A stretch of 64,000 nucleotides of DNA from Terebella lapidaria (Eukaryota > Annelida > Polychaeta > Terebellida > Terebellidae), in the NCBI GenBank assembly GCA_949152475.1, contig OX424568.1, forward strand, positions 2,393,667-2,457,666, given 5' to 3'. The translations under genes were made by a program, and so were the position numbers. The notes beneath the pieces are model-generated. The model was not told the origin of the DNA, ran no database searches, and saw only the letters and a list, made by a program, of their open reading frames with translations. Position 1 is the first letter of the stretch. Each line of letters begins with the position of its first letter. Below are positions 6,731 to 60,600 of the stretch, piece by piece.

Positions 6731-7400
6731 ATTTTAATATTTTAGCATCTGTCTGTTTAGAAATGAATCGTGTCCTGTCAGTCCTATCATCAACAATTTC
6801 TTGACCTCGCAGTATTGCTTCATGTGGCAAATATTTTGGCGAAATGTACCAAATGATATTGGTAGGTATTTGGTAGGATATTGGTAGGAGAACTATAGGA
6901 GAACTATGGGTGTGCCAATTGATGAAGGGTGTGCCATTTCGGGCTATTGATACGTGTTTTGCTGACTTGTATGATGGCTCTTTTATGGCTGAAAGTATGG
7001 CTAGCTTGACGCTCAAAGTGGATGGTGGTTGGGGATTTGCCTGGCCAGTGAAGTGCCCACAACTTTATCACTTGTATATGCCTCGCTATTCCTCCCATAT
7101 TACACATCTACCCATAGATTAAGATCTAAAATTTCAATGTGTAGAATATGTCTCGAAGAATACCTCTCACAGTCCTACATCATTACATAAACTTATTCAC
7201 AAACCGAGCTAACCATACAAACAGCTGGGGAACAAAACGTCTCAGATGTGATATCATAAGAGTGGGCTGATATTGTGGATGCATACTTGCTCTTCTGATC
7301 CACTATTTTTAGGCTACCGTACCTATGGTCTGATAACCTATGGTCGTGGCATTGCGTCCATCGCCTGTCTGTCCATCCGTCGTCGTCCGTCCACATTTTT

Positions 7401-8982
7401 AGGTTACCGGACCTATGGTCCGTAACCTATTGGCATGGCGATGCGTCCGGCGGCGTCGTCGTCGTCGTCGTCGTCGTCCGTCAACAATTTTATCTTTAAA
7501 GTTTACGATCGAATTTTTCTGAAATTTTGCACAAAAATGCCTAAAAATATTTCGAGAGGGAGCTATTTTTTAGTTTTTTGATTTTCGCATTTTTTTCAAA
7601 ATGGCGGCCGTTTTCGACGAAAAATGCCTGATTTTGGACTTTGGCGGCCATTTTCTCAAAATCTGTTCCGTAACTTTTTTTTTATTGATGCATAACACTC
7701 CTCATATGTACCCCTGTGACATGTATAAATTTCGTTGCGCTTGAATCGCTCGAAGTGGGCCATTTTGGGCCCAAACTCGGCCAAAATGGGACTTTCCCAT
7801 GTTAAATTCTCCTATGCTTTATAATGGGACACATTAAAGCCTAATATCTCACTTAATATTGAGATTAGAGACTAGGAATCAATTGTGGACATATAGGAAA
7901 TGATATATGCTGAATATTGTCGTGACCTTGAATTTGACCTCTGACCTTGGTTTCAAGGTCAGAGCGGCCGTTTTCGTCGAAAAATGACCAATTTTGGACT
8001 TCGACGGTCGTTTTCTCAAAATCTGTTCAGTAACTTTTTTTTCTTATTGATGAAAAACACTCCTCATATGTACCCCTGTGACATGTATAAATTTCGTTGC
8101 GCTTGAATCGCTTGAAGTGGGCCATTTTGGGCCCAAACTCGGCCCAAATGTGACTTTCCCATGTTAAATTTTCCTATGCTTTATAATGGCACACATTAAG
8201 CCTAATATCTCACTTAATATTGAAATTAGAGACTAGGAATGAATTGTGGACATATAGGAAATGATATATGCTGAATATTCTCATGACCTTGAATTTGACC
8301 TTTGACCTCATTGCCAAGGTCACAGGACAAAATTGCTAATATCTCGCTTATTATCGACTTTACAGCTTAGGAATCAATTGTGAACATATAGGAAATGATA
8401 TATGCTGAATATTCTCATGACCTTGAATTTGACCTTTGACCTCATTTTCAAGGTCACAGGACAAAATGGCCAATATCTTGCTTATTAGCGCCTTTACAGC
8501 TTAGAAACCAATTGTGAACATATAGGAAATGATATATGCTGAATATTCTAGTGACCTTGAATTTGACTTTTGACCTCATTTTCAAGGTCAACAGGACAAA
8601 ATGGCTAATATCTCGCTTATTATCGACTTTACAGCTGAGGAATCAATTGTGAACATATATGAAATGATATATTCTGAATATTTTAATGATATTGAATTTG
8701 ACCTTTGACCTAAATTTCAAGGTCAGTCATTTTATTTTCAAAGTCAGATTACAAAATGGCTTATATCTCGCTTATTATCAAATTTACAGCTTAGGGGTCC
8801 ATAGTGAACATATAGGAAATGATGTATGCTGAATAGTTTGGTGATCTAGAATTTAACCTTTGATCCCATTTTCAAGGTTAGAGATATGGCGATTTCAGTG
8901 GTCACCTTGAATTTGACCTTCAACTTTCTCGGCTTAACTCTGTATATTTCTCCGGTAAAACCTTTCTAGCCCATTGGGCTAA
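7401..8982 (+). mobile_element. Hairpin-ended element, AGGTTACC family, copy B (nested in A)
   Basis: The 5' end is a clear hairpin: AGGTTACCGGACC TAT GGTCCGTAACCT. It is followed by a (CGT)n stretch and an A/T-rich leader carrying 'AAAATGGCGGCCGTTTTC' twice. The 3' end (8952-8982) has CCGGTAAAACCT, a weak inverted echo of the 5' end, then the small hairpin TAGCCCATTGGGCTA. The flanks are CACATTTTT on the left and TTTTTATC on the right. Joined, they rebuild the leader of copy A, which shows that B jumped into A. No transposase is present. Confidence 0.7.
8275..8880 (+). repeat. Internal tandem repeat of about 134 bp in copy B
   Basis: The phrase GACCTTGAATTTGACC begins near 8285, 8419 and 8553, with a variant near 8688, so the period is 134-135 bp. 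Each unit also has 'CAAGGTCACAGGACAAAAT', 'TATCTCGCTTATTATCGAC' and 'GAACATATAGGAAATGATAT'. The same unit builds the body of the copy at 49004-50683. Confidence 0.75.
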
Positions 8983-10403
8983 TTTTTATCTTTAAAGTGT
9001 ACAGTCCTATCGTTGTGAAAATTTGGGAAGAGACACCTGAAAACAATTCAAGCAGGAGGTATTTATTATTTTTTTTCTTATTTTTTTTTAAATGGCGGCC
9101 GTTTCATCGAAAAACGCTCAATTTTGGCAGCCATTTTGAACTTTGGCAGCCATTTCCTCAATAACTGTGATCAGTTATGAGATTTTTATTTCAAAAGATC
9201 CCTCTCATGTACATTTGTGGCATGTAATTTTTTTTTGCCTCAAATCGCATTGCTTTCTATTTAGGGCCATTCTGGGCAAAAAAAATTCACCCTTTGGAAA
9301 AAAATTTTGGAAAAGAAAATATTGGCACTTTTAAATGGGAAGTCACATATGTTGATTTGTGTGGTGATCTTGAATTTGACCTTCGATGACCTTGAAAGTA
9401 AAAAATTACCCAAATTTGCCTCTACAGACAAAATGCTTGTAGATAGAGCTTAAGTTTGCATTATGGGCATATAGGAAGACATATATGGAACAACTAATGA
9501 TGACCTTTAGCTTGACCTCGGATGACCATGAGTGGTAAATGTCAGACGTCGAATGTGTAAATTGGCCACTGAGACTTAAACGCTTGCATCTAGAGGTGTA
9601 ATTATATGCTTATAAGAAGTCATATATATGTGATACATCTTTTGGTGACCTTGAGTTTGACCATAGACAATCTTGAGCCAAATCTCAAACTCTCGCCTGT
9701 CATGAAATGTATAAATTTACCTTCACAGTCAAGATGCTCGTTGATAGAGCTTATATGTTTGTCTTATGAACACATAGAAAGGCATATGCATTCACACCCG
9801 ATGGTGTCATTGAAATTAAGAGAAGATGGCCTTAATTGGTGAATCTCAAGGTCAAATGTCACCTTCAATGTTCAAAACCAAACTTGTCCGGTAATCTGTC
9901 TTGGCCCTAGGGCTAATTTTACATAATTAACCACATCGCACCAACCCAGCTCTCAACTCACTCAGACTACTGATAGAGATCTTCAGAGAGTGATGTACGT
10001 AACCATAGACCGTAATTATCTGATCAGAATAATGTGGTATATTCTACAGTGCCTAAACTTTTTTGTTTTCGATTTGTGCATAGAACATTCAGTATATTCC
10101 AATGCCCTGTTCTTTGGGAATCTGTGCTGGATATGGTTGTCATGGTTTACAATCAAGACTGAACATCAGAATACTTTGGAGCCATTGATATATATGTAGT
10201 TTGTCAGCAAGATCTTCACCATGTTCATTTCTACATGAAACAAATCGTGAAACGCATTCAAATGCATTGGCGGGATAGATATATGTACAAATATTCACAT
10301 GTAATTGTCCGTGTCATTTGTTTGTATTCTCCCAGACAAGTTGCACCATATCAGTTCACACTCAGAACTTAACTCTGAGACATCTTGTTTCTGATTTCCC
10401 CGG

Positions 10404-10498
10404 ACAACGGACGTGGACGAAGTAGAATTACCGTAATTCCATGTAAGATGGACCATCCACCACTAGACCAAATAACAACAAACCAGGCCAATTATGCT
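10404..10498 (+). pseudogene. Exon-like module M1, copy 1
   Basis: An open frame of about 32 codons contains the block R-I-T-V-I-P-C-K-M-D-H-P-P-L-D-Q and ends at a textbook donor, GCT/GTAAGT. The acceptor position reads TTTCCCCGG, where the copy at 29192-29285 has TTTCCCCAG, so splicing at this site is probably lost. The frame and the C-K-M-D-H-P-P core recur in two other places. A single Cys followed by a P-P-x-D run is loosely reminiscent of an immunoglobulin B-strand region, but that is only a guess. Confidence 0.4.
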
Positions 10499-11148
10499 GT
10501 AAGTTTTCATTGAATCGAGGGATAACACAACAGTGTCCAGACAGAATGACTGGATGACATTTTGTGTTAAACATAATTGGGCATGTGTTCACGATATCAC
10601 TGTTGCTTGGAATGTTTTCCAGAAATGATGATATGTTAATTGAATGAGAATTGAAATATCTGTAAATATCTGAGAGCAGTACTGATCACAAATGATATCA
10701 CCCAGAGCATGTTATGTGTCCCATTTGTATTCGAATTTTACCTCAATATCACCCAGGTTCAAGGAATATTTTTATTAACCAATTGTCCACAAAATTCGTA
10801 GTAAAGATGTTTATCAAGAATGAATTTGATGTTCACCTTGGGCAAACTTGTCAACTGAGACGACATTCATTATTTCTATCATCATAGATGCTATTATTAT
10901 TGTATGCATATAACATGCTACACACAAAAATGAGACAGTTGGCAAATGGTCCGATTGGAATTGATGCACACTGAAGTTCACAGGACAAGGAATTCAATAA
11001 TAAACACGATTATATATTTCAGTCTGACAGTATCCCTGAAGTATATGATTGATTGACATGTACTGGAGTGAATTGTGTGAGGCTGGACGAATCAACTGAC
11101 TATGCTACATTAACATAATATTCTCAGAACACTTACCATCATTACCAG

Positions 11149-12660: not shown

Positions 12661-15464
12661 CTAGACGTCAAGGCCTGAAGATGCCTTGGGGCATTTCGTG
12701 TGAGTTCTATTCCTAGCTAACATATACCTAAGAGACCGTGTCTAGAACCATGATGACTCTGAAACTGTCCGTGGTCAAAGTTTAAGTGACATACCCCGCC
12801 CTTAGGCATCTTTGCGTTTCGCTCTACAACGCACCGTTTCAACGCACCGTTTCCGAGATACGGCAAACAGGAAGTGCTGAGTCGGTGAAAAAAAATTCGA
12901 CACCAGAAGTCGTCTCGACCCAAGATACCCTCTAGACTAGTTAGTCTAGTGCCAGGAGGCCGAAATTAAGCTCCGTTTCGCTGTACGACGCACCGTTTCC
13001 GAGATACAGCCAAACAGAAAGTGCCGAGTCGGTGAAAAAAAAATTTGACACCAGAAGACGTCTCGGCCCAAGATACTCCCTAGACTAGTTTGTCTAGTAC
13101 CAGAAGGCCGGAATTGAGCTCCGTTTCGCTCTACGACTCACCGTTTCCGAGATACGGCCAAACAGGAAGTGCCGAGTCGGCAAAAAAAAGTTCGACAACA
13201 GGGGTAGTCTCGACCCGAAATACCCCTAAGCCTAGTTTGCCTAGTGCCAGGAGGTCGAAATTGAGCTCCGTTTCGCTATACGACGCACCGTTTCCGAGAT
13301 ACGGCCGAACAGGAAGTCCAGAGTCGGCGATAATAAATTCAACACCAGGGGTCGTCTCGACCCAAAAAACCCCCTAGACTAGTTTGTCTAGTACCAGAAG
13401 GCCGGAATTGAGCTCCGTTTCGCTCTACAACTCACCGTTTCCGAGATGAGGCCAAACAGGAAGTGCCGAGTCGGCGAAAAAAATTCGACACCAGGGGTCG
13501 TCTCAACCAAGAATACCCACTAGACTAGTTAGTCTAGTGCCAGAAGGCCGGAATTGAGCTCCGTTTCCCTGTGTGATGCACCGTTTCCGAGATACGGCCA
13601 AACAGGAAGTGCCGATTCGGCAAAAAACAAATTCGACACCAGCGGTCGTCTCGACCCAAAATACCCATAAGCACAGTTTGTCTAGTGCCAGGAGGTCGGA
13701 ATTGAGCTCCGTTTTGCTGTATGATGCACCGTTTCCGAGATACGGCCAAACAGGAAGTGCTGAGTCGGCGAAAATAAATTCGACACCAGGGGTCATCTCA
13801 ACCCAAAATACCCACAAGCCTAGTTTGTCTAGTGCCAGAAGGCCGGAATTGAGCTCCGTTTCGCTCTACGACGCACCGTTTCCGAGATACGGCCAAACAG
13901 GAAGTTCCGAGTCGGCGAAAAAAAAATTGACACCAAGTGTCGTCTCGACCCAAAATACCCACTAGACTAGTTTGTCTAGTGCCAGAAGGCCGGAGTTGAG
14001 CTCCGTTTCGCTCTACGACGCACCGTTTCCGAGATACAGCCAAACAGGAAGTGCCGAGTCGGCGAAAAAAAAATTGACACCAGGTGTCGTCTCGACCCAA
14101 AATACCCACTAGACTAGTTTGTCTAGTGCCAGAAGGCTGGAATTGAGCTCCGTTTCGCTCTACGACGCACCGTTTTCGAGATACGGCCAAACAGGAAGTG
14201 CCGAGTCAGCGAAAATAAAGTCGACACCAGGGGTCGTCTCGACCCATAATACCCACTAGACTAGTTTGTCTAGTACCAGAAAGCCGGAATTGAGCTCCGT
14301 TTCGCTCTAATACGCACCGTTTCCGATATACGGCCAAACAGGAAGTGCCGAATTGGCGAAAATAAATTCGACACCAGGGGTCGTCTCGACCTAAAATACC
14401 CCCTAGACTAGTTTGTCTAGTGCCAGAAGGCCGAAATTGAGCTCCGTTTCGCTCTACGACGCACCGTTTCTGAGATACGGCTGAACAGGAAGTTCCGAGT
14501 CGGCGAAAAAAAAATTGACACCAGGTGTCGTCTCGACCCAAAATACTCACTAGACTAGTTTGTCTAGTGCCAGAAGGCCGGAATTGAGCTCCGTTTCGCT
14601 CTACGACGCACCGTCTCCGAGATACGGCCAAACAAGAAGTTCCGAGTCGGCGAAGAAAAAATTGACACCAGGGGTCGTCTCAACCCAAGATACCCTCTAG
14701 ACTAGTTTGTCTAGTGCCAGGAGGCCGAAATTGAGCTCCGTTTCGCTCTACAACTCACCGTTTTTGAGATACAGCCGAACAAGAAGTGCCGAGTCGGCCA
14801 AAAAAAAAATCGACACCAGGGGTCGTTGCGACCCGTGACACCCCCTAGACTAGTTTGTCTAGTGCCAGGAGGCCGAAATTGAGCTCCGTTTCGCTCTACG
14901 ACGCACCGTTTCCGAGATACGGCCAAACAGGAAGTTCCGAGTCGGCGAAAAAAAAATTGACACCAGGTGTCGTCGCGAACCAAAATACTCACTAGACTAG
15001 TTTGTCTAGTGCCAGAAGGCCGGAATTGAGCTCCGTTTCGCTCTACGACGCACCGTTTCCGAGATATGCATGAAAGCCTCAAGGATGAATCAGCAAAAAT
15101 TCTTCCGAGCTCTAGGTCAGAGGTCGTTCGACGGATTGATCCCAAAATCAATATTGTTCTTCCCTGGTGGTATATGAACTCCCATGCATAGAATACTTGC
15201 CATTGCATGAATACATTTTGAGTTATCGATCGGAAACCAAGTCTCAAGATAAACCTTGAATTCAACACGGACCTCACGGACCCCGGAGCCGCCTCCAAAA
15301 CGATAGGGGTCTTCCATGTAATATTTCTGACCAGTGGTGTAAATTTGGACAAGATCCGTTCAGGCGTTCCCGAGTTATTTATCGGAAACCAAAACGGCGG
15401 AAAGTAAAAAAAAAGAAGAAAAAAAAAGACAAAACCATAAGGGCATTTCGGGCCGAAATGCCCT
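12661..15464 (-). mobile_element. Helitron-like non-autonomous element carrying a 147-bp array
   Basis: Read on the minus strand the element begins at 15464 with a hairpin, AGGGCATTTCGG C CCGAAATGCCCT, then a poly-purine/pyrimidine stretch, a unique ~350-bp leader and the tandem array. At the other end (12661-12700) the 5' arm returns inverted (CGAAATGCCCC), followed by a hairpin of AAGGC and GCCTT, seven bases, and CTAG next to a T. Hairpin, a few bases, CTAG, then T is the classic Helitron 3' end. No Rep or helicase is present. Repeat arrays of ~150-160 bp inside such elements are known from bivalve 'pearl'-type elements. I infer the class from ends only. Confidence 0.55.
12790..15065 (-). 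repeat. Tandem array, unit 147 bp, sixteen copies
   Basis: The word CACCGTTTCCGAGAT (or a near match) starts at 12845, 12991, 13139, 13286, 13433, 13579, 13727, 13874, 14021, 14168, 14315, 14462, 14609, 14756, 14904 and 15051. Every step is 146-148 bases. Each unit holds two small palindromes, GCCGAGTCGGC and ACTAGAC TAGTTT GTCTAGT. Because 147 divides by three, open frames of 95-213 codons run through the array on both strands. They are by-products, not genes. Confidence 0.9.
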
Positions 15465-15618
15465 AATTAGAAAGGGCATTCAAGGAATTAATACATGTAA
15501 ATATATTCCCACTGCAGTCTCCATGTCATTTATTTGTGATTTTAAGTGTATTTTTGACAAGCAATACTAGTTAAAGATCATAGCATAACTCCTAAAATGT
15601 CTTCCATGATTTTGCCAG

Positions 15619-15711: not shown

Positions 15712-15951
15712 GTAGGTTTTCCGTGAATCTAGGAGTAACACAATAGTATCCAGACGACATGATTGGATGGCATTTCGTGCTCAACAGAATTGAGCATGTA
15801 TTATTGTGTTCCCATGATATCACAGGTGCTTTGAGTGCTGTCCAGAAATGAGGATATCTTATGTTGGCTATATCATTGGTGGGTTGGTTTGTTGATTGGT
15901 TAAGGAATAAAACATCTTTTACTGCGATAAGTAAATATCTTCACAATTGAT

Positions 15952-16646: not shown

Positions 16647-16676
16647 TATTCTTAGACCACTTACCATCATTGCCAG

Positions 16677-16793
16677 AGTTGACTGGAATCGTGGAATAAT
16701 TTTACCGTAAAGTAAAATACTGATATGGATAATGAACATAGTGTTGATATAGTTGCCCAAAAGCTGTCAGTTTCTGAGATGAAACTGCAGGTT
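16677..16793 (+). pseudogene. Exon-like module M2, copy 2
   Basis: Bounded by TCATTGCCAG and GGTT/GTGAGT. The frame N-T-D-M-D-N-E-H-S-V-D-I-V-A-Q-K-L-S, then S-E-M-K-L-Q, parallels copy 1 at 11149. One TAA stop falls where copy 1 has a Tyr codon. Confidence 0.35.
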
Positions 16794-19563: not shown

Positions 19564-19761
19564 GGTCGCCGCATCAGCGGCGGCCTATATCAAATACAAA
19601 GTTACTTTAACTTCCGGTGCCGCACAGTGCACCTTTCTCCACCTGCCGCTCAGCGCACGAACTGATATTCTAGCACAAACATCATTCAATTTTATCAGTT
19701 TATTTGACTGACGATCTCACAGCAAGAATTTTGGCCAACGCATTTGTTTCATGCGGCGACC
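19564..19761 (+). mobile_element. Possible 198-bp hairpin-ended mini-element
   Basis: The left end reads GGTCGCCGC ATCA GCGGCGGCC, a strong hairpin. An 11-base inverted echo, ATGCGGCGACC, stands at 19751-19761. This is the same design as the larger elements in the window. I cannot see a convincing 3' terminal hairpin or target duplication, so it may be a remnant. Confidence 0.35.
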
Positions 19762-21371: not shown

Positions 21372-22350
21372 TACGGAGCCCCTAAGAGGACATGCAGAAA
21401 ATAAATTTAGAATGACAACTGATCATTTCGAGCGCTCGAAATATTAATTCGAGCCCTCGAAATCATTTCGAGCGCTCCAAATGTTAATTCGAGCGCTCGA
21501 AATATTAATTCGAGCTCTCGAAATCATTTCGAGCGCACGAAATCATTTCGTGCTATCAAAATGATTTCGAGAGCTCGAAATAATTGCAATTACATCAGCG
21601 GCCATGTTGGTTGCGCAAGAAGGGAGGCATTAGGAACGATAAATAAATAAATGAATAAATAAATGAATAACAATTAACTCTTCCTTGATAGGTATCTGTT
21701 TGCATTTGTGAAAACTGATTCGTACTCAGTTGCAATTAGTACTAGTAAAGTACTGACAGAATTTTCCCAAATCACTTGGATTTACGACCCTAATATATAG
21801 ATAAGGATATTCATAGTCCTAAACTCCAATTGGTCGTAGATTCACAGATGAATCTGTGTTAACTGTTAATTGCAACCAGTTTTCTCACCAACAAAATTAT
21901 ATCTGTCAATACTTTACTACTACTAATTGCACCCGAGTATGGATCAGTTTTCACAAATGCACACAGATACCTGTCAAGGAATAGCTAATTGTTATTTATT
22001 TAATCATTTATTTATTTATTTATAGTTCTTGATGCCTCCCTCCCTTCCAACCAACATAGCCGCGGATGTAATTGCAATTAATTCGAGCGTGATCATTTTG
22101 ATAGCTCGAATTAATTCATTTCGAGCGCTCGAAATGATTTCGTGTGCTCGAAATGATTTCGAGTGCTCGAATTAACTTATTTCGAGCTCTCGAAATGATT
22201 TCGAGTGCTCGAATTATTATTTCGAGCACTCGAAATGATTTCGAGAGCTCGAATTAATTTATTTCAAGCACTCGAAATGATTTCGAGCGCTCGAAATGAT
22301 CAGTTGTCACTCCAAATTTATTTTCTGCATGTCCTCTTAGGGGCTCCGTA
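21372..22350. mobile_element. 979-bp foldback element with palindromic minisatellite arms
   Basis: The terminal inverted repeats start TACGGAGCCCCTAAGAGG and extend inward for roughly 390 bases. The pairing continues through GACAACTGATC, an array of TTTCGAGCGCTCGAAAT-like units (21425-21590 and 22080-22300), the (AAAT)n tract and GGTATCTGT. About 140 bases of unpaired centre remain (around 21760-21903). The flanks are CGAATG on both sides, a six-base target duplication. The small units are themselves palindromes, so the arms can fold at two scales. It encodes no protein. Confidence 0.85.
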
Positions 22351-26284: not shown

Positions 26285-26894
26285 GGCGGGGGGGGGGGGG
26301 GATTTCCAAGGTCATTGAAGGTCATATTCAAGGTCACCATTCAAACCGCAATATATGATTTCCACTTTGAATGTGTCAATACTTCGGCTCTATCTTGAAG
26401 TGTTCTATGAGTTTACTCCGCACAGCTCCCATTATGACGGAAAAATTGGGTGAAATTTTCTCAGTCCAAAAATTTTTTCAATGGCCAAAAAAAAAAAAAC
26501 TTCTGCTGGAAATGTCTCAAAACGGATAGTGACTTGGTTTGGGACAAGCAATTTTTTTCGCCGACCCGTCAAAAAATCAAAATGGCCGCCACAGGCAGAC
26601 CGGCGATTCAAGGGTAACGAAACTTATACACATTATAGAGGTACATGAGGGGAATGTTTTAGTACAATAATCTCAAATCTGATCAGATAGTTTTTGAGGA
26701 AATGGCCATCAGAGTCCGAATCGGCAAAAACGATTCAATCAGAAAAATTTGAAAAACCTCTTTAGATACAGGCCCAAGGTATGTTCTGACAAATTTATGG
26801 GTAAATTTATCATGTCAAAAAAGAATTACAGACCCCGACGGACGACGGACGAAAAACCATGACAATAGCTTATCGGCCCAAAGGGCCGGTAAGA
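26285..26894 (-). mobile_element. Hairpin-ended element, minus orientation, CCGGCCC family
   Basis: Read on the minus strand it begins near 26894 with the hairpin TTACCGGCCC TTT GGGCCGATAA, then CTATTGTCATGG and a (CGTCC)n leader. That order is the same as in the AGGTTACC family (hairpin, CTATTGCCATGGCG, CGTCC leader). The body contains 'AAATGGCC' and the AGGTCA words near 26310-26330. A 3' inverted echo is not seen. The element probably ends at or is cut by the G-run at 26284. Confidence 0.5.
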
Positions 26895-29781: not shown

Positions 29782-31163
29782 ACCCTCGCCCCGTAGGGGG
29801 GCGAGGGTATTGCAATTGGGTCTGTCCGTTTGTATGTCTGTTTGTTTGTTTGTCTGTCTGTCTGTCTGTCCGCGCGCATATCTCGAAGGAGAATGGTCCG
29901 ATCAACATGAAACTGATAGGGATGAAGCGGTATCTTAGTGGCTCGGTCCTCCTCGAATCTGGTCAAAATCGGACAAAAACTGTTGCCATGGCAACGGAAA
30001 ATGTAAAAATCAATAATTGACCATAACTTCGGTTCTGATCAAGATAATTTTTTCTAACTAATTTTGTATTTTTCTATGGCCAATTCCTGATCATTTGATA
30101 TATGGCCCGTGGTCGTACGACCAAAACTCTCCATTATCGCCCGATCTCGAAAAATTGGGGGTCACGGTTTCGAACTTTTTTGGCCAGCGACGTCTCAGTG
30201 CAAATGTCCGCGCTCATTACTCAAAGGCAAACGGTCCGATCGATTTGAAATTTATAGAGCAAGAGTGCTATTGTGATGGCTCAGGCCTCTTAAAATTTCA
30301 CCAAAATCGGATGGAAACGGTTGCCATGGCAACGGAAAAGAGAAAATCACATCATTGGCTCTAACTCCGGTTTTAATTGATATTAATTTTTCCAATTATT
30401 TTTGTATTTTTCTTTGGCCAATTCCCGATCGTTTGGTGTACGACCGATGGTCGTACGACGAAAACTCTCTATTATCGCCCGATGTCGAAAAATTGGGGGT
30501 CACGATTTCGGTTATTTTTGGCCAGCGACGTTTTAGTGCAAATATCCGCGCTCATAACTCAAAGGCAAACGGTCCGATCGATTTGAAATTTATAGGGCAA
30601 GAGTGCTATGGTAGTGGCTCAGTCCCTTTAAAATTTTACCAAAATCGGATGGAAGCGGTTGCCATGGCAACGGAAAAAAGAAAATCACATCATTGGCTCT
30701 AACTCCGGTTCTACTTGATATTAATTTTTCCAACTATCTTTGTATTTTTTTTTGGCCAATTCCCGATCGTTTGATGTACGACCGATGGTCGTATGACGAA
30801 AACTCTATTATCGCCCGATGTCACGATTTCGGTTATTTTTGTCCAGCGACGTTTCAGTGCAAATGTCTGCGCTCATAACTCAAAGGCAAACGGTCCGATC
30901 GATTTGAAATTTATAGGGCTGGAGTGCTATGGTAGTGGCTCAGAAAACGGTTGCCATGGCAACGGGAAAAAGAAAATCGCATAATTGGCTATAACTCCGG
31001 TTCTAATCAATATTAAATCTTCAACCTATTCTTGTATTTTTCTTTGGCCAATTCCCAATCGTATGGCGTACAACCGATGGTCTTAAGACCAAATCTCTCA
31101 ATTATCGCCTAATTTTAGTGACTAAATCTGAAGGGCGAGGGTCTGCAATCTCTGATTGTCTCG
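29782..31163 (+). mobile_element. Hairpin-ended element, ACCCTCGCCC family, simple copy
   Basis: The 5' end is a perfect hairpin, ACCCTCGCCCC GTAGG GGGGCGAGGGT, followed by a (GTTT/GTCT)n microsatellite and 'CCGCGCGCATA'. The 3' end shows the inverted echo GGGCGAGGGT, then the small hairpin CAATC TCT GATTG and TCTCG. The left flank is …TTTTT and the right flank TT. The body is four tandem units of 290-340 bp. It gives the uninterrupted model for the copy at 52515-58998. No coding capacity is seen. Confidence 0.75.
29880..31080 (+). repeat. Tandem units of 290-340 bp, each with a GTTGCCATGGCAAC palindrome
   Basis: Units share 'CAAACGGTCCGATCGA', 'GTTGCCATGGCAAC', 'TTGGCCAATTCCCGATCG' and 'GACCGATGGTCGTA'. 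The 14-base palindrome stands at 29992, 30320, 30658 and 30950. It is an exact match to the established X-box consensus bound by RFX factors. Whether anything binds here is unknown. Confidence 0.8.
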
Positions 31164-31169
31164 TTACTG

Positions 31170-37326: not shown

Positions 37327-37414
37327 GGATAATCGGTTCAGTGTCGCATCTCTGGAAAATAATAGACTCGCGTTCGGATTATTTTCCAGAGTCGCTCCAC
37401 TTCACCGATTATCC
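37327..37414. ncRNA. 88-nt imperfect hairpin, precursor-microRNA size
   Basis: The left arm GGATAATCGGT … CTCTGGAAAATAAT pairs with the right arm ATTATTTTCCAGAG … ACCGATTATCC. The stem is about 37 bases with a bulged middle, and the loop is ~14 bases. The form fits an animal pre-microRNA. It also fits a tiny foldback element, although no target duplication is obvious. No known microRNA family is recognised. Confidence 0.35.
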
Positions 37415-49003: not shown

Positions 49004-50683
49004 AGGTTACCGGACCTTTGGTCCGATAACCTATTGCCGTGGCGTTGCGTCCGTCGTCGTCGTCCGTCGTCGTCCGTCTACATTTCTATCTTTAAAGTTT
49101 ACGATCGAATCTTTCTGAAATTTTGCACAAAAATGCCTAAAAATATTTCGAGAGGGTGGTATTTTTTAGTTTTTTGATTTTCGCAATTATTTCAAAATGG
49201 CGGCCGTTTTCATCGAAAAATGGCCAATTTTGGACTTTGGCTGTCGTTTTCTCAAAATCTGTTCAGTAACTTTTTTTCTTATTCATGCGTAACACTCCTC
49301 ATATGTACCTCTGTGACACGTATAAATTTCGTTGCCCTTGAATCGCTCGAAGTGGGCCATTTTGGGCCCAAACTCGGCCCAAATGGGACTTTCCCATGTT
49401 AAATTCTCCTATGCTTTATAATGGGACACATTAAGCCTAATATCTCACTTAATATTGAGATTAGAGACTAGGAATCAATTGTGGACATATAGGAAGTGAT
49501 ATATGCTGAATATTTTCGTGACCTTGAATTTGACCTTTGACCTCATTTTCAAGGTCACAGGACATGGCTAATATCTCGCTTATTATCGACTTTACAGCTT
49601 AGGATTCAATTGTGAACATATAGGAAATGATATATGCTGAATATTTTCATGATCTTGAATTTGACCTTTGCCCTCATTTTCAAGGTCACATGACAAAATG
49701 GCTAATATCTCGCTTATTATCGACTTTACAGCTTAGGAATACATTGTGAACATATAGGAAATGATATATGCTGAATTTTCTCGTGACTTCGAATTTGACC
49801 TTGACCTCATTTCCAAGGTCACAGGACAAAATTGCTAATATCTCGCTTATTATCGACTTTACAGCTTAGGAATCAATTTTGAACATATAGGAAATGATAT
49901 ATGCTGAATATTTTTGTGACCTTGAATTTGACCTTTGACCTCATTTTCAAGGTCACAGGTCAAAATGGCCAATATCTTGCTTATTAGTGACTTTACGCCT
50001 TATGAATCAATTGTGAACATATAGGAAATGATATATGCTGAATATTCTAGTGACCTTGAATTTGACTTTTGACCTCATTTTCAAGGTCAACAGGACAAAA
50101 TGGCTAATATCTTGCTTATTATCAACTTTACAGCTTAGGAATCAATTGTGAACATATAGGAAATGATATATTCTGAATATTCTCATGACCTTGAATTTGA
50201 CCTTTGACCTAAATTTCAAGGCCAGTCATTTTATTTTCAAGGTCAGAATACAAAATGGTTTATATCTCTCTTATTATCAAATTCACAGCTTAGGGGTCAT
50301 AGTGAACATATAGGAAATGATGTATGCTGAATATTTTGGTGATCTAGAATTTGACCTTTGATCCAATTTTCAAGGTCCGAGAACAAAATGGCTGATATGT
50401 CGCTTATTATCATCTTTACTGCTTAGGAATCAATTGGGAATATAGAGGAATGATATATACTGAATCTTTTCATGAACTTGAACTTTGACCTCATTTTCTA
50501 GGTCACATCACCGATCACAGAATGGCTAATATCTCACTTATTATCGACTTTACAGCTTAGGAATTTATTGTGGACATACTAGAAGTGATATATTTGTTGA
50601 AAAATTATTTTCAAGGTCACTGGACAAAAGGCTAATATCTAAAATGTATATTGTCCGGTAACCTTTCTTAGCCCTTGGGCTAA
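49004..50683 (+). mobile_element. Hairpin-ended element, AGGTTACC family, copy C
   Basis: The 5' hairpin is AGGTTACCGGACC TTT GGTCCGATAACCT. The 3' end has the clean inverted echo GTCCGGTAACCT at 50653, then the hairpin TTAGCCC TT GGGCTAA ending at 50683. Copies 1 and 2 of the host unit show the empty site. The host reads TATATTTTT before and TTTTTATTATAC after. The body is at least eight ~134-bp units, each with a TGACCT … AGGTCA pair. No coding capacity. Confidence 0.82.
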
Positions 50684-50738
50684 TTTTTATTATACACAGA
50701 ACCCGCAAAACGGTGAATCTCTGCTTTATCTAACGCTA

Positions 50739-51295
50739 AACTCAAGTTTATCCATCAGTGAAACACGCTTTTTGGCCGTAGTTTTGATTTCAGATCAATT
50801 TGAAATTTTGTGTGTATTAGTTGGGCATCATGCCGTAATTTTCCACCAAATTTCAGAATTCTATCTCGAAAATTGGAAAAGTTGGCAATCAAAACCAATG
50901 TTAAATTTCAGTCCCAACATGGCATTTCAGAGTCTGCATAATAAACAACTTTTATACGATGTACGTGTTATATATTGCTTTCGAATAAACATATTTACTT
51001 ATTATAAACCGACTATGCCTTCTGACTCCAAATCAACACAATAGGTTTATTCTGTATTGGCATAAAAACGATGAAAGCCCTGAATTTGTCGAAATTTACT
51101 TTATCCCATTTCGGACTGGAATTTAACGTTGGGTTAGATTGCCAACTTTTTCAATTTTGGAGATAGAATTCTGAAATTCGGTGGAAAATTACGGCATGAT
51201 ACCCAATTGAGGCACACAAAATTTCAAGTTGATCCAATTATCCAAAACAAAATTACAACCATAAAGCGTGTTTCACTGATCGATGAACTAGACTT
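50739..51295. mobile_element. 557-bp inverted-repeat MITE with TA target duplication
   Basis: The left end AACTCAAGTTTATCCATCAG is inverse to the right end (…CTGATCGATGAACTAGACTT). The pairing continues inward for about 190 bases, through 'GAAACACGCTTT' and 'CATGCCGTAATTTTCCACC'. The host copies read GCTACCAGCG without it; here TA stands on both sides. Long inverted arms and a TA duplication fit a Tc1/mariner-type MITE. The 90-codon frame inside is a by-product. Confidence 0.82.
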
Positions 51296-52587
51296 TACCA
51301 GCGTGAGAGAAAGCAGACAATGGAGATTCATGGTATCGACGATAGGATGTGAATTTGTCTTTCAATGAAACACTCGAGGTCTGGCTTGATATAGTTCACG
51401 TGTTGGCATTGGATAGATATATACATTTAACCATATTCCCTTGCTTATACTTGCTGATGTACATCTTTAGGCTCCTTCTGAACCAATCACATGATTACTT
51501 CTACATTTAAATTGAAATCAAGAAAATACTGTTTTTTCTCAAATAGTTAAGAAATATAAACGTAAATAGATATGTTCTTGAGAGAATTAACAACGATCGG
51601 TTCCCTCTTTGTGTGTCACATAGACTATTTTTTTGCTCCCATCAATAGAAATACAAAGTATATCGTTTATCACCACATTATACTTAGGCCTACAGGAGGA
51701 TTTTTTACATTGTTTTTTTTGCATCAGATCATTCGGAGAAGAGAAATAGCCTATGTGCATTTACCGACCTTTTCAACAATAATGAAGTCTGCTCCAATGA
51801 CTCGAAGCAGACGATAATGTGAGGTCATCTGACCAGCTGTGGGCCTGTGGATGTTAGCAATTTCATTGACGATTGATCACTCACAAGGCCATTATTGAAA
51901 GGGAGGTTCAGATATGTCATGTTGAATGTTTGCTTGGTCGTTCCATGAGACTATCGAAGCTGATAAAATATCACGCCGATCTGATGTGCTAAAGCACAAT
52001 TCTACTAAATGGAACATTCAAGCAAACACCTGAAGATTTGCATGTGAAATCAACATGAGCAGCATTTGGACCTACTCCACAATTTGATCCCCACTTTTGC
52101 AATTCACGAGCAGAACCACCATATCAACCAATTTTCCTCACTGATTGGAACGTTGGATATTATTGTCTCCCCGCAGGGGAGACTTCTTAAACGCTCTCTG
52201 AGATTCCCATGGGGGAAATACTCTTCGACTGGGGGAAAAACCTGGTTTCGAAAAAAAAAATACTTTGAACGTGTGTTCTACAGAGCTCGACGTAAATAAT
52301 TCAGTTAATTAATATAATCTGATGAATATTTTCGTCGAATGGAGCAATTTTTTCATCACTATCGCCGATTTACGTGAACATTAGCGTCTCGGCTGGATTT
52401 GAGAATAAATACATAACTACGGTGTGCATTCAGTCAACCGGGTATCACTCTTGTCCCTACTGTCGAGCCATCGCTCACTTCTCACGCTTATACTCAAAAT
52501 GTCAGTGCCTAATTACCCTCGCCCCGATAGGGGCAGAGGGTATTGTAATTGGGTCTGTCAGTTTGTATGTCTGTTTGTCTGTTTGTT

Positions 52588-55500
52588 ACTTGACGAAATG
52601 TAAATTTCGTCAAGTATGTTGGTCAGTCGCGTTTGTCTGTCTGTTTGTTACTTGACGAAATGTAAATTTCGTCAAGTATGTTGGTCAGTTGCGTTTGTCT
52701 GTTTGTTTGTTTGTGACCGCTCCACAGGTCACATTTTTGATTGTAGAATCATGAAAATAGGTCAGAAGATGTGCAGTCCAATATGGATGGATGAGTTCAT
52801 TTTTGGGAGGTCAAGGACAAATATTGAGGTCAAGGTCACGCAAAACGATAAAAACACATAAATGGCCATAACTCCGGTTCTAATTGTCCTAGAGACTTCA
52901 AACCAAGTTCATATTGTACATAAACTCGAGTTCTATCTTTTGTGACCTTGACCTTGGCATTTGACCTTGACCTTGAGAAGTTCGCCTAAGGTGAATGTCA
53001 AGGTCAAATACGAAGGTCAGCGCACCATATCGAGTAGTATATCGTTGGAAAGGTCTTGACCCCCTGATTGCAGTGATACCTTATTTTCGGCGCTGCGACG
53101 TAAACTGACGTCACAATGACGTCATAAACGTCAAATTTCCGAAATTTCAAAAGGCTATAACATCGTCAATACTGTATGGAATCTCTTCAAACTTGATATG
53201 CATATTGACAGCAATGACCTTTACGAATTTAGGTACAAAGGTCAAAGGTCAAGGTCAAGGTCATCGAAATCCCAGAAAAACACGTTTCCGGTAATAACAT
53301 CCGTTTGATTTGTCGTAGGTTCATGAATTTTGAACCATATCCTTCAGAAGAGGTATTGTAATTGAGTGTATATGTCAATTTCATGATTGACCTTGAACTT
53401 TGTCAGGAAAATAAGGTCATATCAGGAAAACTTCAAGGTCAAATTTTCAAACTAACTGAAACATATCAAGTAGTATATCAAATGAAAGGTCTTGATTCCC
53501 TGGTACATACTTTCTCATCAGTTTTGAGATGTGACGTTTATTGACGTCACAGTGACGTCATAAACGTTAATTTTTCGAAATTTCAAATGGTCATAGTGTC
53601 CACAAATCTTGTTTGATTCTAATGAAATTATACGGGTATAATATATGTCTTCATGCACATTCAATGCACAATTTTCGTGACTCAGGGTCAAAAATCAAGG
53701 TCAAGGTCACGCAAAATGTTAAAAACACATAAGTGGCCATAACTCCGGTTCTATTTGTTATAGAGACTTCAAACCAAGTTCATATTGTAGATAAACTCGA
53801 GTCCTATCTTCTATGACCTTGACCTTGGCATTTGACCTTGACCTTGAGAAGTTCGCCATGAGGTGAATGTCAAGGTCAAGTACGAAATTCAGCGCACCAT
53901 ATTGAGTAGTATATCGTTGGAAAGGTTTTGAGCCCCTGATTGCAGTGATACCCTATTTTCGGCGCTGCGACGTACACTGACGTCACAATGACGTCATAAA
54001 CGTCAAATTACCGAAATTTCAAAAGGCCATAACAGCGTCAATAATGTATGGAATACCTTGAAACTTGACATGCATATTAATAGCATTGACTTTTACGAAT
54101 TGAAATACAAAGGTCAAAGGTCAAGGTCAAGGTCATCGAAATCCCAGAAAAACACCTTTTCGGTTATAACATCTGTTTGAATCATTGTAGTCTCATAAGA
54201 TTTGAACCATATCATTCAGAAGAGGTATAGCAATCAGACTTATATGTCAATTCCATGACTAACCTTGAACTTGATCAGAAAAATGAGGTCACATGAGCAA
54301 AACTTCAAGGTCAAATTTTCAAACTAACTAAAAGCTATCAAGTAATATATCAAATGGAAGGCCTTGAACCCATGATAAATAGTTTCCCATCAGTTTTCAA
54401 ATGTGACGTTTATTGACGTCACAGTGACCTCATGTACGTAAATTTTTCGAAATTTCGAAGAGCCACAGTGTCCGGAATTCTTGTTCGATTCTGATGGAAT
54501 TGTTCAAGTATAATTTATATCTTCATGCACGGGCAATGCACAATTTTCGTGACCCAACGTCACAATGACGTCATAAACGTCAAATTACCGAAATTTCAAA
54601 AGGCCATAACAGCGTCAATAATGTATGGAATACCTTGAAACTTGACATGCATATTAATAGCATTGACCTTTACGAATTGAAATACAAAGGTCAAAGGTCA
54701 AGGTCAAGGTCATCGAAATCCCAGAAAAACACCTTTTCGGTTATAACATCTGTTTAAATCGTTGTAGTCTCATAAGATTTGAACCATATCATTCAGAAGA
54801 GGTATAGCAATCAGACTTATATGTCAATTCCATGACTAACCTTGAACTTGATCGGAAAAATGAGGTCACATGAGCAAAACTTCAAGGTCAAATTTTCAAA
54901 CTAACTAAAAGCTATCAAGTAATATATCAAATGGAAGGCCTTGAACCCATGATAAATAGTTTCCCATCAGTTTTCAAATGTGACGTTTATTGACGTCACA
55001 GTGACCTCATGTACGTAAATTTTTCGAAATTTCGAAGAGCCACAGTGTCCGGAATTCTTGTTCGATTCTGATGGAATTGTTCAAGTATAATTTATATCTT
55101 CATGCACGGGCAATGCACAATTTTCGTGACCCAAGGTCAAGGGTCAAGGTCAAGGTCGAAGAAAAGGTCAAAATCACAAAAATTGCCATACCTTCGGAAC
55201 TATTCATCATAGGATGTTCAAACTGGGACCATATTGTAGCATATCAAAAGGTCTTTGTCCGCTGACCGTGAATGTGCACTTTGACCTTGACCTTGAAAAG
55301 TTTGCCCAACGTAAAAATTTCACGAAAAAAGTATCTTTCTTCAAATGTCGAGGAGTTGTTCAGTAAATCTTTTCAATGTGTAAATTATGAGTAAATGTTT
55401 TAAATGTAAACAAATGTTTAGTCATTTCGTCAAGTGTTGGCCTATGGCCGATTTTTTGTTTGTTTGTTTGTTTGTTTGTGACCGCTCCACAGGTCACATT

Positions 55501-57640
55501 TTTGATTGTAGAATCATGAAAATAGGTCAGAAGATGTGCAATCCAATATGGATGGATGAGTTCATTTTTGAGAGGTCAAGGTCAAATATTGACGTCAAGG
55601 TCACGCAAAACGATAAAAACACATAAATGGCCATAACTCTGGTTCTAATTGTCCTAGGGACTTCAAACTAAGTCCATATTGTACATAAACTCGAGTTCTA
55701 TCTTTTGTGACCTTGACCTTGGCATTTGACCTTGACCTTGAGAAGTTCGCCTAAGGTGAATGTCAAGGTCAAATACGAAGGTCAGCGCACCATATCGAGT
55801 AGTATATCGTTGGAAAGGTCTTGACCCCCTGATTGCAGTGATACCTTATTTTCGGCGCTGCGACGTAAACTGACGTCACAATGACGTCATAAACGTCAAA
55901 TTTCCGAAATTTCAAAAGGCTATAACATCGTCAATACTGTATGGAATCTCTTCAAACTTGATATGCATATTGACAGCAATGACCTTTACGAATTTAGGTA
56001 CAAAGGTCAAAGGTCAAGGTCAAGGTCATCTAAATCCCAGAAAAACACGTTTCCGGTAATAACATCCGTTTGATTTGTCGTAGGTTCATGAATTTTGAAC
56101 CATATCCTTCAGAAGAGGTATAGTAATCGAGTGTATATGTCAATTTCATGATTGACCTTGAACTTTGTCAGGAAAATAAGGTCATATCAGGAAAACTTCA
56201 AGGTCAAATTTTCAAACTAACTGAAACCTATCAAGTAGTATATCAAATGAAAGGTCTTGATTTCCTGGTACATACTTTCTCATCAGTTTTGAGATGTGAC
56301 GTTTATTGACGTCACAGTGACGTCATCAACGTTAATTTTTCGAAATTTCAAACGGTCAAAGTGTCCACAAATCTTGTTTGATTCTAATGAAATTATACAG
56401 GTATAATATATGTCTTCATGCACAGGCAATGCACAATTTTCGTGACTCAAGTTAAAAAAATCAAGGTCAAGGTCACGCAAAATGTTGAAAACACATAAGT
56501 GGCCATAACTCCGGTTCTATTTGTTATAGAGACTTCAAGCCAAGTTCATATTGTAGATAAACTCGAGTCCTATCTTCTGTGACCTTGACCTTGGCATTTG
56601 ACCTTGACATTGAGAAGTTCGCCATGAGGTGAACGCAAGGTCAATTACGAAAGTCAGCGCACCATATTGAGTAGTATATCGTTGGAAAGGTTTTGAGTCC
56701 CTGATTGCAGTGATACCCTATTTTCGGCGCTGCGACGTACACTGACATCACAATGACGTCATAAACGTCAAATTACCGAAATTTCAAAAGGCCATAACAG
56801 CGTCAATAATGTATGGAATACCTTGAAACTTGACATGCATATTAACAGCATTGACCTTTACGAATTGAAATACAAAGGTCAAAGGTCAAGGTCAAGGTCA
56901 TCGAAATCCCAGAAAAACACCTTTTCGGTTATAACATCTGTTTGAATCGTTGTAGTCTCATAAGATTTGAACCATATCATTCAGAAGAGGTATAGCAATC
57001 AGACTTATATGTCAATTCCATGACTAACCTTGAACTTGATCGGAAAAATGAGGTCACATGAGCAAAACTTCAAGGTCAAATTTTCAAACCAACTAAAAGC
57101 TAACAAGTAATATATCAAATGGAAGGCCTTGAACCCATGATAAATAGTTTCCCATCAGTTTTCAAATGTGACGTTTATTGACGTCACAGTGACCTCATGT
57201 ACGTAAAGTTTTCGAAATTTCGAAAAGCCACAGTGTCCGGAATTCTTGTTCGATTCTGATGGAATTGTTCAAGTATAATTTATATCTTCATGCACGGGCA
57301 ATGCACAATTTTCGTGACCCAAGGTCAAGGGTCAAGGTCAAGGTCGAAGAAAAGGTCAAAATCACAAAAATTGCCATAACTTCGGAACTATTCGTCATAG
57401 AAAGTTCAAACTGGGACCCTATTGTAGCATATCAAAAGGTCTTTGTCCGCTGGCCTTGAATGTGCACTTTGACCTTGACCTTGAAAAGTTTGCCCAACGT
57501 AAAAATTTCATGAAAAAAAGTATCTTTCTTCAAATGTCGAGGAGTTGTTCAGTAAATCTTTTCAATGTGTAAATTATGGGTAAATGTTTTAAATGTAAAC
57601 AAATGTTTAGTCATTTCGTCAAGTGTTGGCCTATGGCCGA
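52588..57640 (+). mobile_element. Hairpin-ended element, ACTTGACGAAAT family, outer copy (X outer)
   Basis: The 5' hairpin is ACTTGACGAAAT GTAA ATTTCGTCAAGT. The 3' end at 57611-57640 has ATTTCGTCAAGT, then the hairpin TTGGCC TAT GGCCGA before a T-run. It sits inside the GTTTG microsatellite of the ACCCTCGCCC element. Without the inner copy its length is about 2251 bp. The body is dense in AGGTCAAGGTCA and TGACGTCA words. No coding capacity. Confidence 0.75.
52650..55451 (+). mobile_element. Hairpin-ended element, ACTTGACGAAAT family, inner copy (X inner)
   Basis: A second, complete 5' hairpin follows the first by 62 bases, and a second complete 3' end lies at 55421-55451. The insertion point is the outer copy's own GTTTG microsatellite, the same kind of site the outer copy used. 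It is 2802 bp long. The extra length comes from a ~577-bp internal tandem duplication (about 53970-54550 and 54550-55125). Confidence 0.75.
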
Positions 57641-60600
57641 TTTTTTGTTTGTTTGTTTGTCTGTCCGCGCGCATAACTCAAAACCGAATGGTCCGATCGT
57701 CCTGAAATTTATAGGGAAGAAGCGGTATCACCGTGGCTCGGTCCTCCTCAATTTTTGTCAAAATCAGAAAAAAATTGTTGCCATGGCAACGAAAAAAGAG
57801 AAAATCACATATTTGGCTATAACTCTAGTTCTAATGAATATTAATTTCTTAAACTAATTTTGTATTTTTCTTTGGCCAATTCCCGACCCTATGGTGTACG
57901 GCCGATGGTCGTACGACAAAAACTCTCTATTATCGCCCGATGTCGAAAAATTGAGGGTCACGATTTTGGTGATTTTTTGCCAGCAACGTTTCAGTGCAAA
58001 TGTCTGCGCTCATAACTCAAAGGCAAACGGTCCGATCGATCTGAAATCTATAGGACTGGAGTGCTATGATAGTCGCTCGGTCCCGTTCGAATTTTGTTCG
58101 AATCGGATGAAAACAGTCGCCATGGCAACGGAAAAAGTGAAAATCACTTAATTGGCTCTAACTCCGGTTCTACTTGATATTAGTTTTCCAACTATTTTTG
58201 TATTTTTCTTTGGCCAATTCTCGATCGTATGGTGTACGACCGATGGTCGTACAACGAAAACTCTCCATTATCGCCCAAGGTCGAAAATTTGGAGGTCACG
58301 ATTTTATTATTTGTGAGTGTTCTGAGATTTGAGGCCATATTGTGAAGCCAGTTATCAATCTGATTAATGCGTTTTCGTTCATGAGATGTGCCTTGATAAT
58401 AGGAACATAACGGTGAAATTTTACAGCTCAATATTGAACGACAAGGTCAAGGTCACAGAAGAGGTCAAAATCGAAAAGTTGCAATAACTCTGTTTATATT
58501 CATGATAAATTTTCCCTAATAATTTTGTATTTTTCTGTGGTCTATTCTCCACCTTTTGCTATATGACCAATGCCGTACAATCAAAATTCCCCATTATCCC
58601 CCAAGATCGAGAATGTAAGGGTCATCAGCTGAAATTACCGATTTCGTAATATTTCAAGTAGTAATAATTCAGAAACCACTGGAGATATTCAATAAAGTAT
58701 CACGCATTATAAATCTGAGTGAGCCTTCAAATTTTGGAAGGTTAGTGTCAAGGAATCAGGCCGTGGTCACAAATATGGTCCAAAAAGAGAAATCGCATGA
58801 ACTCTACTTTTAATAATGATTAATCCTCCCATGATTTTCGTATTTTTCTATGGCCAATTCCTGACCATTTGATATATGGCCACTTGTCGTATGACCAAGA
58901 TCCCCGATTATCGCCGACGTTGAAAATGCAAAGGTTATCAGCTTTAACTTTAGTGACTAAATCTGAAGGGCGAGGGTCTGCAATCTCTGATTGTCTCGTT
59001 TTCCTTGTTTTGGAGCAGTAAAATTAGCACGTTTGTTACGTTCTATTTCCTGACTGCATTTTTACTTTTACCAATCGAACGCATTTAGTTTTCGCTGTCC
59101 CATAACGAGCTAATTTTTTCGAGTGGGAAGATTGAGAACCGTGGTGGGCCTATTGATCGTTGGCAATGTGTAAAAGTCGGAATGGGTTCTGAGTTCAACG
59201 CCACCGCATTCAACATTGAAATTTGGTGCTTATGACTATTCCGACGGTACTAAAATTTAGTAGACACTTCTCATATAGCATATATATTGTCGCCTATTTG
59301 TACACTATCGACCAAAAACAACTTTACGAATATATTGAATTTAAACGAGAGAAAATAGAAAACGGTGCTGGATTTCATAAACACCTAGCTATTTTTTTAT
59401 GGGCGAACTCGATCAGGGACTACTATTCATCAGTGTTAACTATAGGGTACGAATTGCTTTCACATATCGGTAATCGTCCTGCATGGACATCGTATATAGG
59501 CCTGTATCAAATGCGCATGGAATTAAATTGAAAAAAAAAGCGCAATTAATTCTTCCATCCGGGGAGATCTGGTGCTTTGCACCAGGTATGATTCTTGTTA
59601 CGTTATTGAGCGATCAATGGCGTGTTCTCACCCATTATCGCCCTCTGGCAATTAGCGCTTCACGTAATTCTTGATTACCAATTTACTTCGCTAGGTGGCA
59701 CTGTACATCAGACAGGGGACAAGCTGTCATCGATATGATGAAAAAACTAATTAATCTTATAGCAATTATGGTCAGCATGGTATATCGCTGTGTTCTGGGG
59801 TTTCACCTGGGGGTTAGAACATACATTGTGTGATGTAAGAGCACTGGCAAAGTTTGACCCATGGAGATTGTACCAGAAGACCAGTCTTTTTCACCACGTA
59901 TAAACCCTAGGCCTGATTACGAGGATCATCGGTACTAATGAACCGTTCTTGAGGTGTCAACTAATTCCCAATAAGTTATAGGAAACTATAAGACGAATTT
60001 GCGGTTTACTGTAAGCCACGAATGATATGTAAATCCATCCAGCCAACCAGTTGACAAAGTGGTAATACAAAGATCAGCATGTGCTTTCTTGTCTCAGAAT
60101 TAATTGTATTAATGAACACATGATATAGGAGCTGAACATTGTGCATTGTGTATTTCTCAGTGGGTTGTCATAGAAACTATTGTCTGAAACTATTAACCGA
60201 GACAATTTAGAAAACAAAACAAAAAGAAAACTGATCAATACTGTATTGGGTCTGGTAATAAATCACATTATATCTTCATTGACAGAAATGTAATTATGTG
60301 GGTTCCTTTTTATTATACATATAAGAAGTATAAAGAAGGAAACCAAATGTCACAATTGTCTGTTACCTGTTCCATTAGTCTTCGTGGTATACCTTATCTG
60401 TGGCTCACGCGAGAGCAGGCAGTACCGTCCCTATGTCCATTGTGTCTATCATGCGTACGTACAGCAATCGAAATTAATCAATCCACATAAATTGCAGATT
60501 GATACTTAAGTACATTTGGATATCTCGTATGTTGTAATATCCTGATTATCTTTTCCATGTGCTACACAGAATCGTTGAGATTTCAACGAGCCCAAGTTTA

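Follow-up and report, generated by a model that had tools for sequence, protein, structure and literature searches.

Helentron-type element families with unrelated ends and an over-occupied 5' insertion zone in the genome of Terebella lapidaria

Helentrons and their non-autonomous derivatives (HINEs) carry palindromic subterminal repeats and a 3' palindrome, insert at TT, and form families with different repeats, according to the accessible portions of PMC4067079 and PMC7492417. Reversed Rep frames have already been published in such elements (PMC4067079 and PMC5148889, as far as accessible). In the FoHeli Helitron2 elements, the portions consulted of PMC5148889 describe multiple 5' termini, in which the first 31-85 nt are repeated, and put them down to self-insertion; the same portions give canonical Helitrons (HLE1) as having 5'-TC and 3'-CTRR ends and inserting between A and T. 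Here we compare these systems with element families F1 to F7 in a 64,000-nucleotide stretch of the genome of the polychaete Terebella lapidaria (the window; C15:2393667-2457666, contig OX424568.1 of assembly GCA_949152475.1, totalling 761.6 Mb), to whose positions all coordinates of F1 to F7 refer.

We estimate a probability of about 0.93 that F1 to F5 are non-autonomous Helentrons (HINEs) moved by the Rep/Pif1-helicase of Helentrons in the same genome. The preliminary description of the window had recognized a common end design in seven cases and proposed a Helentron/HLE2 relationship, which is borne out: F1 and F2 ends flank Rep/Pif1-helicase frames, and F3 inserts at T's without duplication. 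The shared design itself holds for F1, F2, F3 and F4, in part for F5 (on the minus strand) and for the minus-strand case at 26893 (5' end alone), and is unsupported for the case at 19564.

Shared anatomy of the ends

F1, F2, F3 and F4 in the window begin with a 5' hairpin, perfect or imperfect, one arm of which returns inverted near the other end and is followed by a short second hairpin (Table 1), as the preliminary description had it. The F1 ends are AGGTTACCGGACC..GGTCCGATAACCT on the 5' side and GTCCGGTAACCT on the 3' side, followed by an AGCCC..GGGCT hairpin. The corresponding F2 ends are ACCCTCGCCC..GGGCGAGGGT and GGGCGAGGGT, then CAATC-TCT-GATTG; those of F3 are GTCTCCCC-GCA-GGGGAGAC and CGGGGAGA, then TGGTGC-TTT-GCACCA; and those of F4 are ACTTGACGAAAT..ATTTCGTCAAGT and ATTTCGTCAAGT, then TTGGCC-TAT-GGCCGA. 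A 5' palindromic repeat with an inverted return, combined with a 3' palindrome, is the Helentron/HINE arrangement, present in F1 to F4 and only probable in F5. The starts and ends of F1 to F4 differ from those of canonical Helitrons, and F3 targets T/TT. A T-rich 3' flank, which had been described for all families, is found in F1 and F4, whereas F2 ends in CTCG(TT) and F3 in TTCTTG|T. F1 also carries a GTC microsatellite followed by a T-run, and interior repeats of about 134 bp.

Family words were counted in the window, those of F1, F2 and F4 with up to 1 mismatch, and the chance level was taken from 100 shuffles. The F1 and F2 words have 5 matches each and the F4 word 6, counts reached by 0/100 shuffles, while the F5 word has 2 matches (2/100 shuffles reach 2) and the observed count of the 8-base F3 word is reached by 11/100. 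Because shuffles match their window counts in this way, the F3 and F5 end calls lean on copies elsewhere. Genome-wide, the F1 hairpin pattern has 11257 matches compared to 0 for the reversed control; such genome-wide pattern counts need exact matches, so that occupied and empty sites are both undercounted.

Multi-copy alignment of the ends, a check proposed in the preliminary description, was made for F3 with the window copy and 20 extra copies (of 40 listed). The hairpin is the 5' border in 21/21 copies, and its bases 0 to +11 agree in 18-21 of the 21. Upstream, positions -1, -2 and -5 are always T, position -3 is A in 16/21 and position -4 is T in 14/21, so that the element may really begin as much as five bases upstream of the hairpin. 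The 3' border and 3' hairpin could be placed by exact pattern in 13/21 copies. Agreement on this side extends through the T after TTCTTG in all 13 located copies, then falls to just 4-7/13 over the next eight bases. T stands at both flanks, and the longest flank match is 1-2 T's in 13/13 copies, so F3 inserts without target duplication. The empty site for the F2 insertion listed in Table 1 is present in other F3 copies.

Rep/helicase frames and their ends

The Helitron_like_N domain has 150 scored matches of 234 candidates genome-wide, many of them in open frames of >2000 codons, and 10 Rep-domain loci were fetched for reading. In locus L023, an F1 5' end (2395) and an F1 3' end (16755-16791, 94.7% over 38) flank a 2514-codon open Rep/helicase frame. 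In L011, an F2 5' end (3651, with the first hairpin bases differing) and 3' end (15863-15895, 33/33 bases) flank a 2067-codon open Rep/helicase frame. A Rep/helicase between such ends had been named in advance as support for the Helentron relationship. Rep and PIF1 domains are present in 6/6 proteins tested, including L012 with F2 ends and L024 with F1 ends.

The other loci are less complete. L021 has the F1 3' end alone, at the border of its homology with L023. In five loci (L013, L015, L017, L025 and L027), homology between copies from different places stops within a few bases of a 5' hairpin of F4 type, which stands downstream of the Rep frame and on the other strand. A search of these five F4-type autonomous elements for their left (3') ends found none, and ends could not be assigned in L009 and L019. 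A de novo scan of the 10 loci for a hairpin, a returning arm and a second hairpin gave mainly chance matches and missed L011; it was set aside in favour of family ends and mutual homology.

Two arrangements were seen beside these F4-type ends. On the minus strand of L013, at 19994-19807, four stacked 5' hairpins with differing arms stand at the border of the element with the antisense Rep frame. In L015, L017, L025 and L027, a Helentron-like 3' end lies immediately before the 5' module, head to tail, with the same arm type in L025 and L027 and other types in L015 and L017.

A Rep tree of 18 rows, 13 of them different, comprises five lineages. The pair with F1 ends lies on a branch of 1.28 and the group with F2 ends on one of 0.58; the two clades that carry F4-type ends are each other's sisters (90/92), beside L019. 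As far as five lineages can tell, unrelated ends appear to accompany distant Reps and related ends related Reps.

Within the F4 group, arms change slightly and in a compensating manner. F4-type strand and variant statistics were drawn from the first 100 of 3901 modules, among which there are 21 different hairpins. In three columns, those left free on the left arm by the search pattern, 61/63 cells are paired (shuffle mean 45.2, maximum 56; 0/10000 reach 61), and one column shows G-C, C-G and A-T pairs; in two additional columns, 1 and 2 cells are unpaired. The 3' arm tracks the 5' arm in both variants readable at two ends, ATTTCGTCAAGT with ACTTGACGAAAT in the window and ATTTTGCCAAGT with ACTTGGCAAAAT in L025 and L027.

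Nesting, occupancy of the 5' zone and weaker cases

Four nests were identified in the window: F1 in F1, F4 in F4, F4 in the microsatellite of F2, and F2 in F3. The insertion lies 90, 62 and 73 bp from the host 5' end in the first three, and 350 bp from it in F2 in F3. At 7311/7401 and 52588/52650 the 5' end is doubled, which the preliminary description does not mention; these are nested copies. Over its first 572 bases the inner F1 copy shares 92% identity with the 49004 copy, compared to 82% for the 5' module of the outer copy, which is therefore the older; the resumed body of the outer copy is 74% identical (8982-9127 = 49082-49233). The two F4 bodies are 97.7% identical over 1871 bases, which a tandem origin could also account for.

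Genome-wide, the F1 T-run that follows the GTC microsatellite holds another F1 5' end at 493 sites and is empty at 2817 (493/3310, 14.9%). A longer T-run ~100 bp deeper in F1 is occupied at 176 sites and empty at 6360 (176/6536, 2.7%), which gives an odds ratio of 6.3 (5.3-7.6) between near and deeper runs. Both exceed the rough genome average of 0.1% for runs of at least four T's, obtained as 11257 exact 5' ends over 11.7 million such runs, extrapolated from 986 in the window. No published measure of preference for the 5' zone was found in the literature searched, with most subscription journals outside the search, and we know of no role for the microsatellite or T-run beside the Helentron 5' repeat.

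We read 20 nested F1 junctions (of 100 listed). An outer F1 module stands 58-100 bp upstream in 18/20, all but L069 and L074. These 18 outer modules represent 16 different 49-base types, or 15 if L062 and L067, which have common flanks, are counted once; such variety suggests many separate nesting events, with later divergence adding to the number of types. Among the 100 listed junctions, four pairs 72-105 bp apart are nests within nests. Far junctions, where the outer body would resume, number 190 genome-wide with the adopted 2-4 base loop (a 3-base loop alone gave 54). On C1, 9/82 near junctions have a correctly ordered far junction within 20 kb, where 0.27 are expected, and 3 have one in the wrong order. 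For the other 73, the far junction may have been lost, may lie outside the exact pattern, or may be missing from doubled-end units that moved as such, as has been proposed for Fusarium (PMC5148889, in the portions consulted). Landing is not confined to the family's own members, as F1 is found inserted in F4-like and F5-like 5' zones (L023, L072). The position of the favoured zone is common to three families despite their differing microsatellites (window, L072).

The F4 group is stacked on a larger scale. Genome-wide there are 3901 F4-type 5' modules and 1097 junctions between successive modules; these are different patterns, and both include segmental duplicates. Within the sample of 100 modules, 77/77 neighbours within 50 kb share a strand, and 40 modules lie at C1:33.43-33.54 Mb. 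Rep places that neighbour each other within 100 kb have the same orientation in 38/39 cases, among 143/150 Rep places (the 7 omitted are on small contigs). Two clusters on C1, at 41.15-41.36 and 47.00-47.41 Mb, have every listed F4-type junction on the plus strand and each of the five Rep matches on the minus strand. At C1:33429116-33493179, a segment with seven successive 5'-module positions is tandemly duplicated within a Helentron island, the positions reappearing with equal spacing at a distance of 55.7 kb. The same-strand clustering of F4 is therefore partly segmental duplication.

The remaining cases are weaker. F5 had been given a plus-strand start, which we rejected: in 38/39 listed matches other than the window, homology covers only the hairpin and bases to its left (~15427-15480), and one of the 39 extends to query base 81. 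Since homology runs leftward from the hairpin, F5 lies on the minus strand with the design present, and its 3' end is probably at 12699-12661. Its interior at 12842-15066 is a tandem array of a 147-bp unit (15.1 copies, 87% matches), which raises G+C there to 45%. Of the two further cases suggested earlier, the one given as 26894 (minus), here F7, does have an F1-like 5' module; its 3' partner was sought across 9 kb and not found. The other, F6 at 19564, has a 9-base inverted copy and no clear second hairpin, and its family membership is unsupported.

Table 1. Elements of families F1 to F4 in the window, followed by the weaker cases
Element	Coordinates	Strand	Ends and context
F1 outer (older) copy	7311..9916	+	5' module 7311-7400, split by inner copy; resumes past T-run 8983-8987; 3' arm 9886-9897; 3' hairpin 9901-9916
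F1 inner (younger) copy	7401..8982	+	in outer copy's T-run, 90 bp from outer 5' end; 3' hairpin TAGCCCATTGGGCTAA 8967-8982
F1 single copy	49004..50683	+	hairpin 49004-49032; 3' arm 50653-50664; 3' hairpin 50668-50683
F2 copy	29782..31165	+	hairpin 29782-29808; 3' arm 31133-31142; 3' hairpin 31146-31158; end CTCG(TT)
F2 copy nested in F3	52515..59000	+	350 bp from F3 5' end; 3' arm 58968-58977; itself split by nested F4
F3 copy split by nested F2	52165..59597	+	hairpin 52165-52183; 3' arm 59560-59567; 3' hairpin 59570-59584; end TTCTTG
F4 outer copy	52588..57640	+	5' module 52588-52649; body restarts about 55458; 3' arm 57613-57624; 3' hairpin 57626-57640
F4 inner copy	52650..55451	+	in outer F4's TTTG microsatellite, 62 bp from outer 5' end; 3' arm 55424-55435; hairpin 55437-55451
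F5 element	15464..12661 (approximate)	-	hairpin 15464-15440; probable 3' arm 12699-12688; probable hairpin 12687-12670
F7	26869..26893	-	F1-like 5' hairpin, altered arms CTTACCGGCCC..GGGCCGATAAG, then GTC-rich stretch
F6	19564..19761	+	hairpin GGTCGCCGC..GCGGCGGCC; 9-base inverted copy GCGGCGACC at 19753

Other hairpins occur in the window. A foldback at 50737-51297 adjoins the single F1 copy, with arms at 50793-50917/51110-51234 (125 nt, 89% complementary) and 50737-50790/51244-51297 (83%); for a similar stretch near 44123, foldback arms of that kind were not found in 43500-44700. The region 21425-22300 contains numerous short palindromes of the ATTTCGAGCGCTCGAAAT type and one hairpin with 33-base arms at 22181-22253, and an isolated hairpin at 37350-37391 has 15-base arms (1 mismatch) and a 12-base loop.

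Mechanism, alternatives and comparison with described systems

In the mechanism that we propose, Rep would recognize the 5' palindromic repeat and nick there, and the helicase would then peel away one strand. The inverted arm and short hairpin near the 3' end would halt the process, and the freed strand would be joined into a T/TT target without duplication. Arms would differ between families because different Rep lineages use them. The T-run or microsatellite inside the 5' hairpin would be a preferred site for further copies, so that copies nest in one orientation and leave stacked 5' hairpins.

Several observations weigh against this account. Both ends were assigned in only 2/10 Rep loci; F3 and F5 are not linked to any Rep frame, and F4-type ends are linked by the 5' end only. 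In five loci the Rep frame and the hairpin end are in antisense orientation to each other, which leaves some room there for an unrelated neighbouring insertion. The Helentron endonuclease (Exo_endo_phos), whose C-terminal fusion to Rep/helicase marks Helentrons in the narrow sense, passes the Pfam cut-off in L014 and L020, scores below that level in L024 and L025, and is not listed in L012 and L009. The 3' arm match of F5 (10/12 bases) is not above chance by count, with 7 seen, 2.98 expected and 7 reached by 4/100 shuffles. The preference for the 5' zone has one control T-run and is possibly inflated by doubled-end units moving together and by segmental duplication.

Other origins of the families fit the data less well. 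If a DDE transposase mobilized the families as miniature inverted-repeat transposable elements (MITEs) or foldback elements, they would likewise be short and non-coding with end inverted repeats, but here the ends are asymmetric, insertion at T's leaves no duplication, and Rep/helicase lies between F1 and F2 ends, and we find this origin hardly credible. The preliminary description also envisaged one replication system that changes its ends freely; in such a case a single Rep lineage would move all five families and recode their ends by exchange. Different arm variants do adjoin in F4-type stacks, there are F1 insertions in F4-like and F5-like 5' zones, and a new 5' end could be brought in by doubled-end composites. 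However, the Reps with F1, F2 and F4 ends sit on long, well supported separate branches, sister Reps have related ends, and where both ends of a variant could be read, its 3' arm corresponds to its 5' arm. Free recoding is thus very improbable, though the arms do change slightly and in a compensated way within the F4 group.

For the stacked 5' ends, there is the further option that they are by-products of rolling-circle replication or of unequal exchange in tandem arrays, not self-insertions. The head-to-tail 3'/5' junctions of L025 and L027, the segmental repeats within one island, the near identity of the window F4 bodies and the small share of C1 near junctions with an ordered far partner all speak for it. 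Yet the outer F1 body in the window restarts exactly past the T-run and predates the inner copy, far junctions occur genome-wide with ordered pairs well above expectation, and the outer 49-mers are diverse, and we judge by-products unlikely. The most serious competitor, to which we give even odds, is that the 5' zone is occupied more merely as a good local T target, the resident 5' hairpin playing no part. Insertion is indeed at T's, and the deeper F1 T-run is also occupied above the rough average. On the other hand, that control run is longer yet six times less occupied, and three families with differing microsatellites share the position of the zone. We tentatively suggest, as a somewhat less probable possibility, that the T-run or microsatellite is a self-provided landing site and that the transposition complex docks on resident 5' ends, giving insertions 30-100 bp inside, in one orientation and across families.

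Taken together, these observations describe new Helentron/HINE families of known design in a Helentron-rich genome. Several Helentron lineages in one genome would yield unrelated ends on one design, so that known biology settles the puzzle. The over-used 5' insertion zone is worth following: the six-fold higher occupancy makes an insertion-site role for the 5' microsatellite or T-run directly testable, and nesting there is a route to composite and end-swapped elements. If docking is true, it would build one-strand Helentron islands, spare host genes and give old 5' ends new bodies, and would account for the retention of the microsatellite as well as for the slow turnover of ends.

The preliminary description had also entertained a new group, which we do not adopt, as insertion at TT, palindromes at the 3' end and in the subterminal repeats, and families that differ in these repeats are already published (PMC4067079 and PMC7492417, in the parts accessible). 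The Helentrons and HINEs of mite, Culex and Drosophila (Thomas et al., 2014, PMC4067079) resemble ours in their 12-15 bp palindromic subterminal inverted repeats with an inverted copy near the 3' end, a 3' palindrome of 5-10 bp and insertion at TT. They too have microsatellites and are divided into families by their repeats, and in one family Rep runs in minus orientation. In contrast, the families and sequences here are new, and the accessible text of that paper does not quantify insertions into the 5' zones of other copies. Cg_HINE of the Pacific oyster (PMC7492417, accessible portions) has a 5' subterminal inverted repeat, a complementary repeat, a GTC-type microsatellite, interior tandem repeats and a 3' subterminal inverted repeat with a palindrome, and it inserts at T-rich sites without duplication. 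F1 is alike in layout, and nesting in the 5' module, seen here, is not reported for Cg_HINE in those portions. A parallel for nesting is FoHeli Helitron2 of Fusarium oxysporum (Chellapan et al., 2016, PMC5148889), which shares end hairpins, asymmetric inverted repeats and, in some groups, reversed open reading frames with our elements. In the portions consulted its multiple 5' ends are given as examples, whereas here they are documented by genome-wide counts with one internal control site, in several families and with some cross-family landing.

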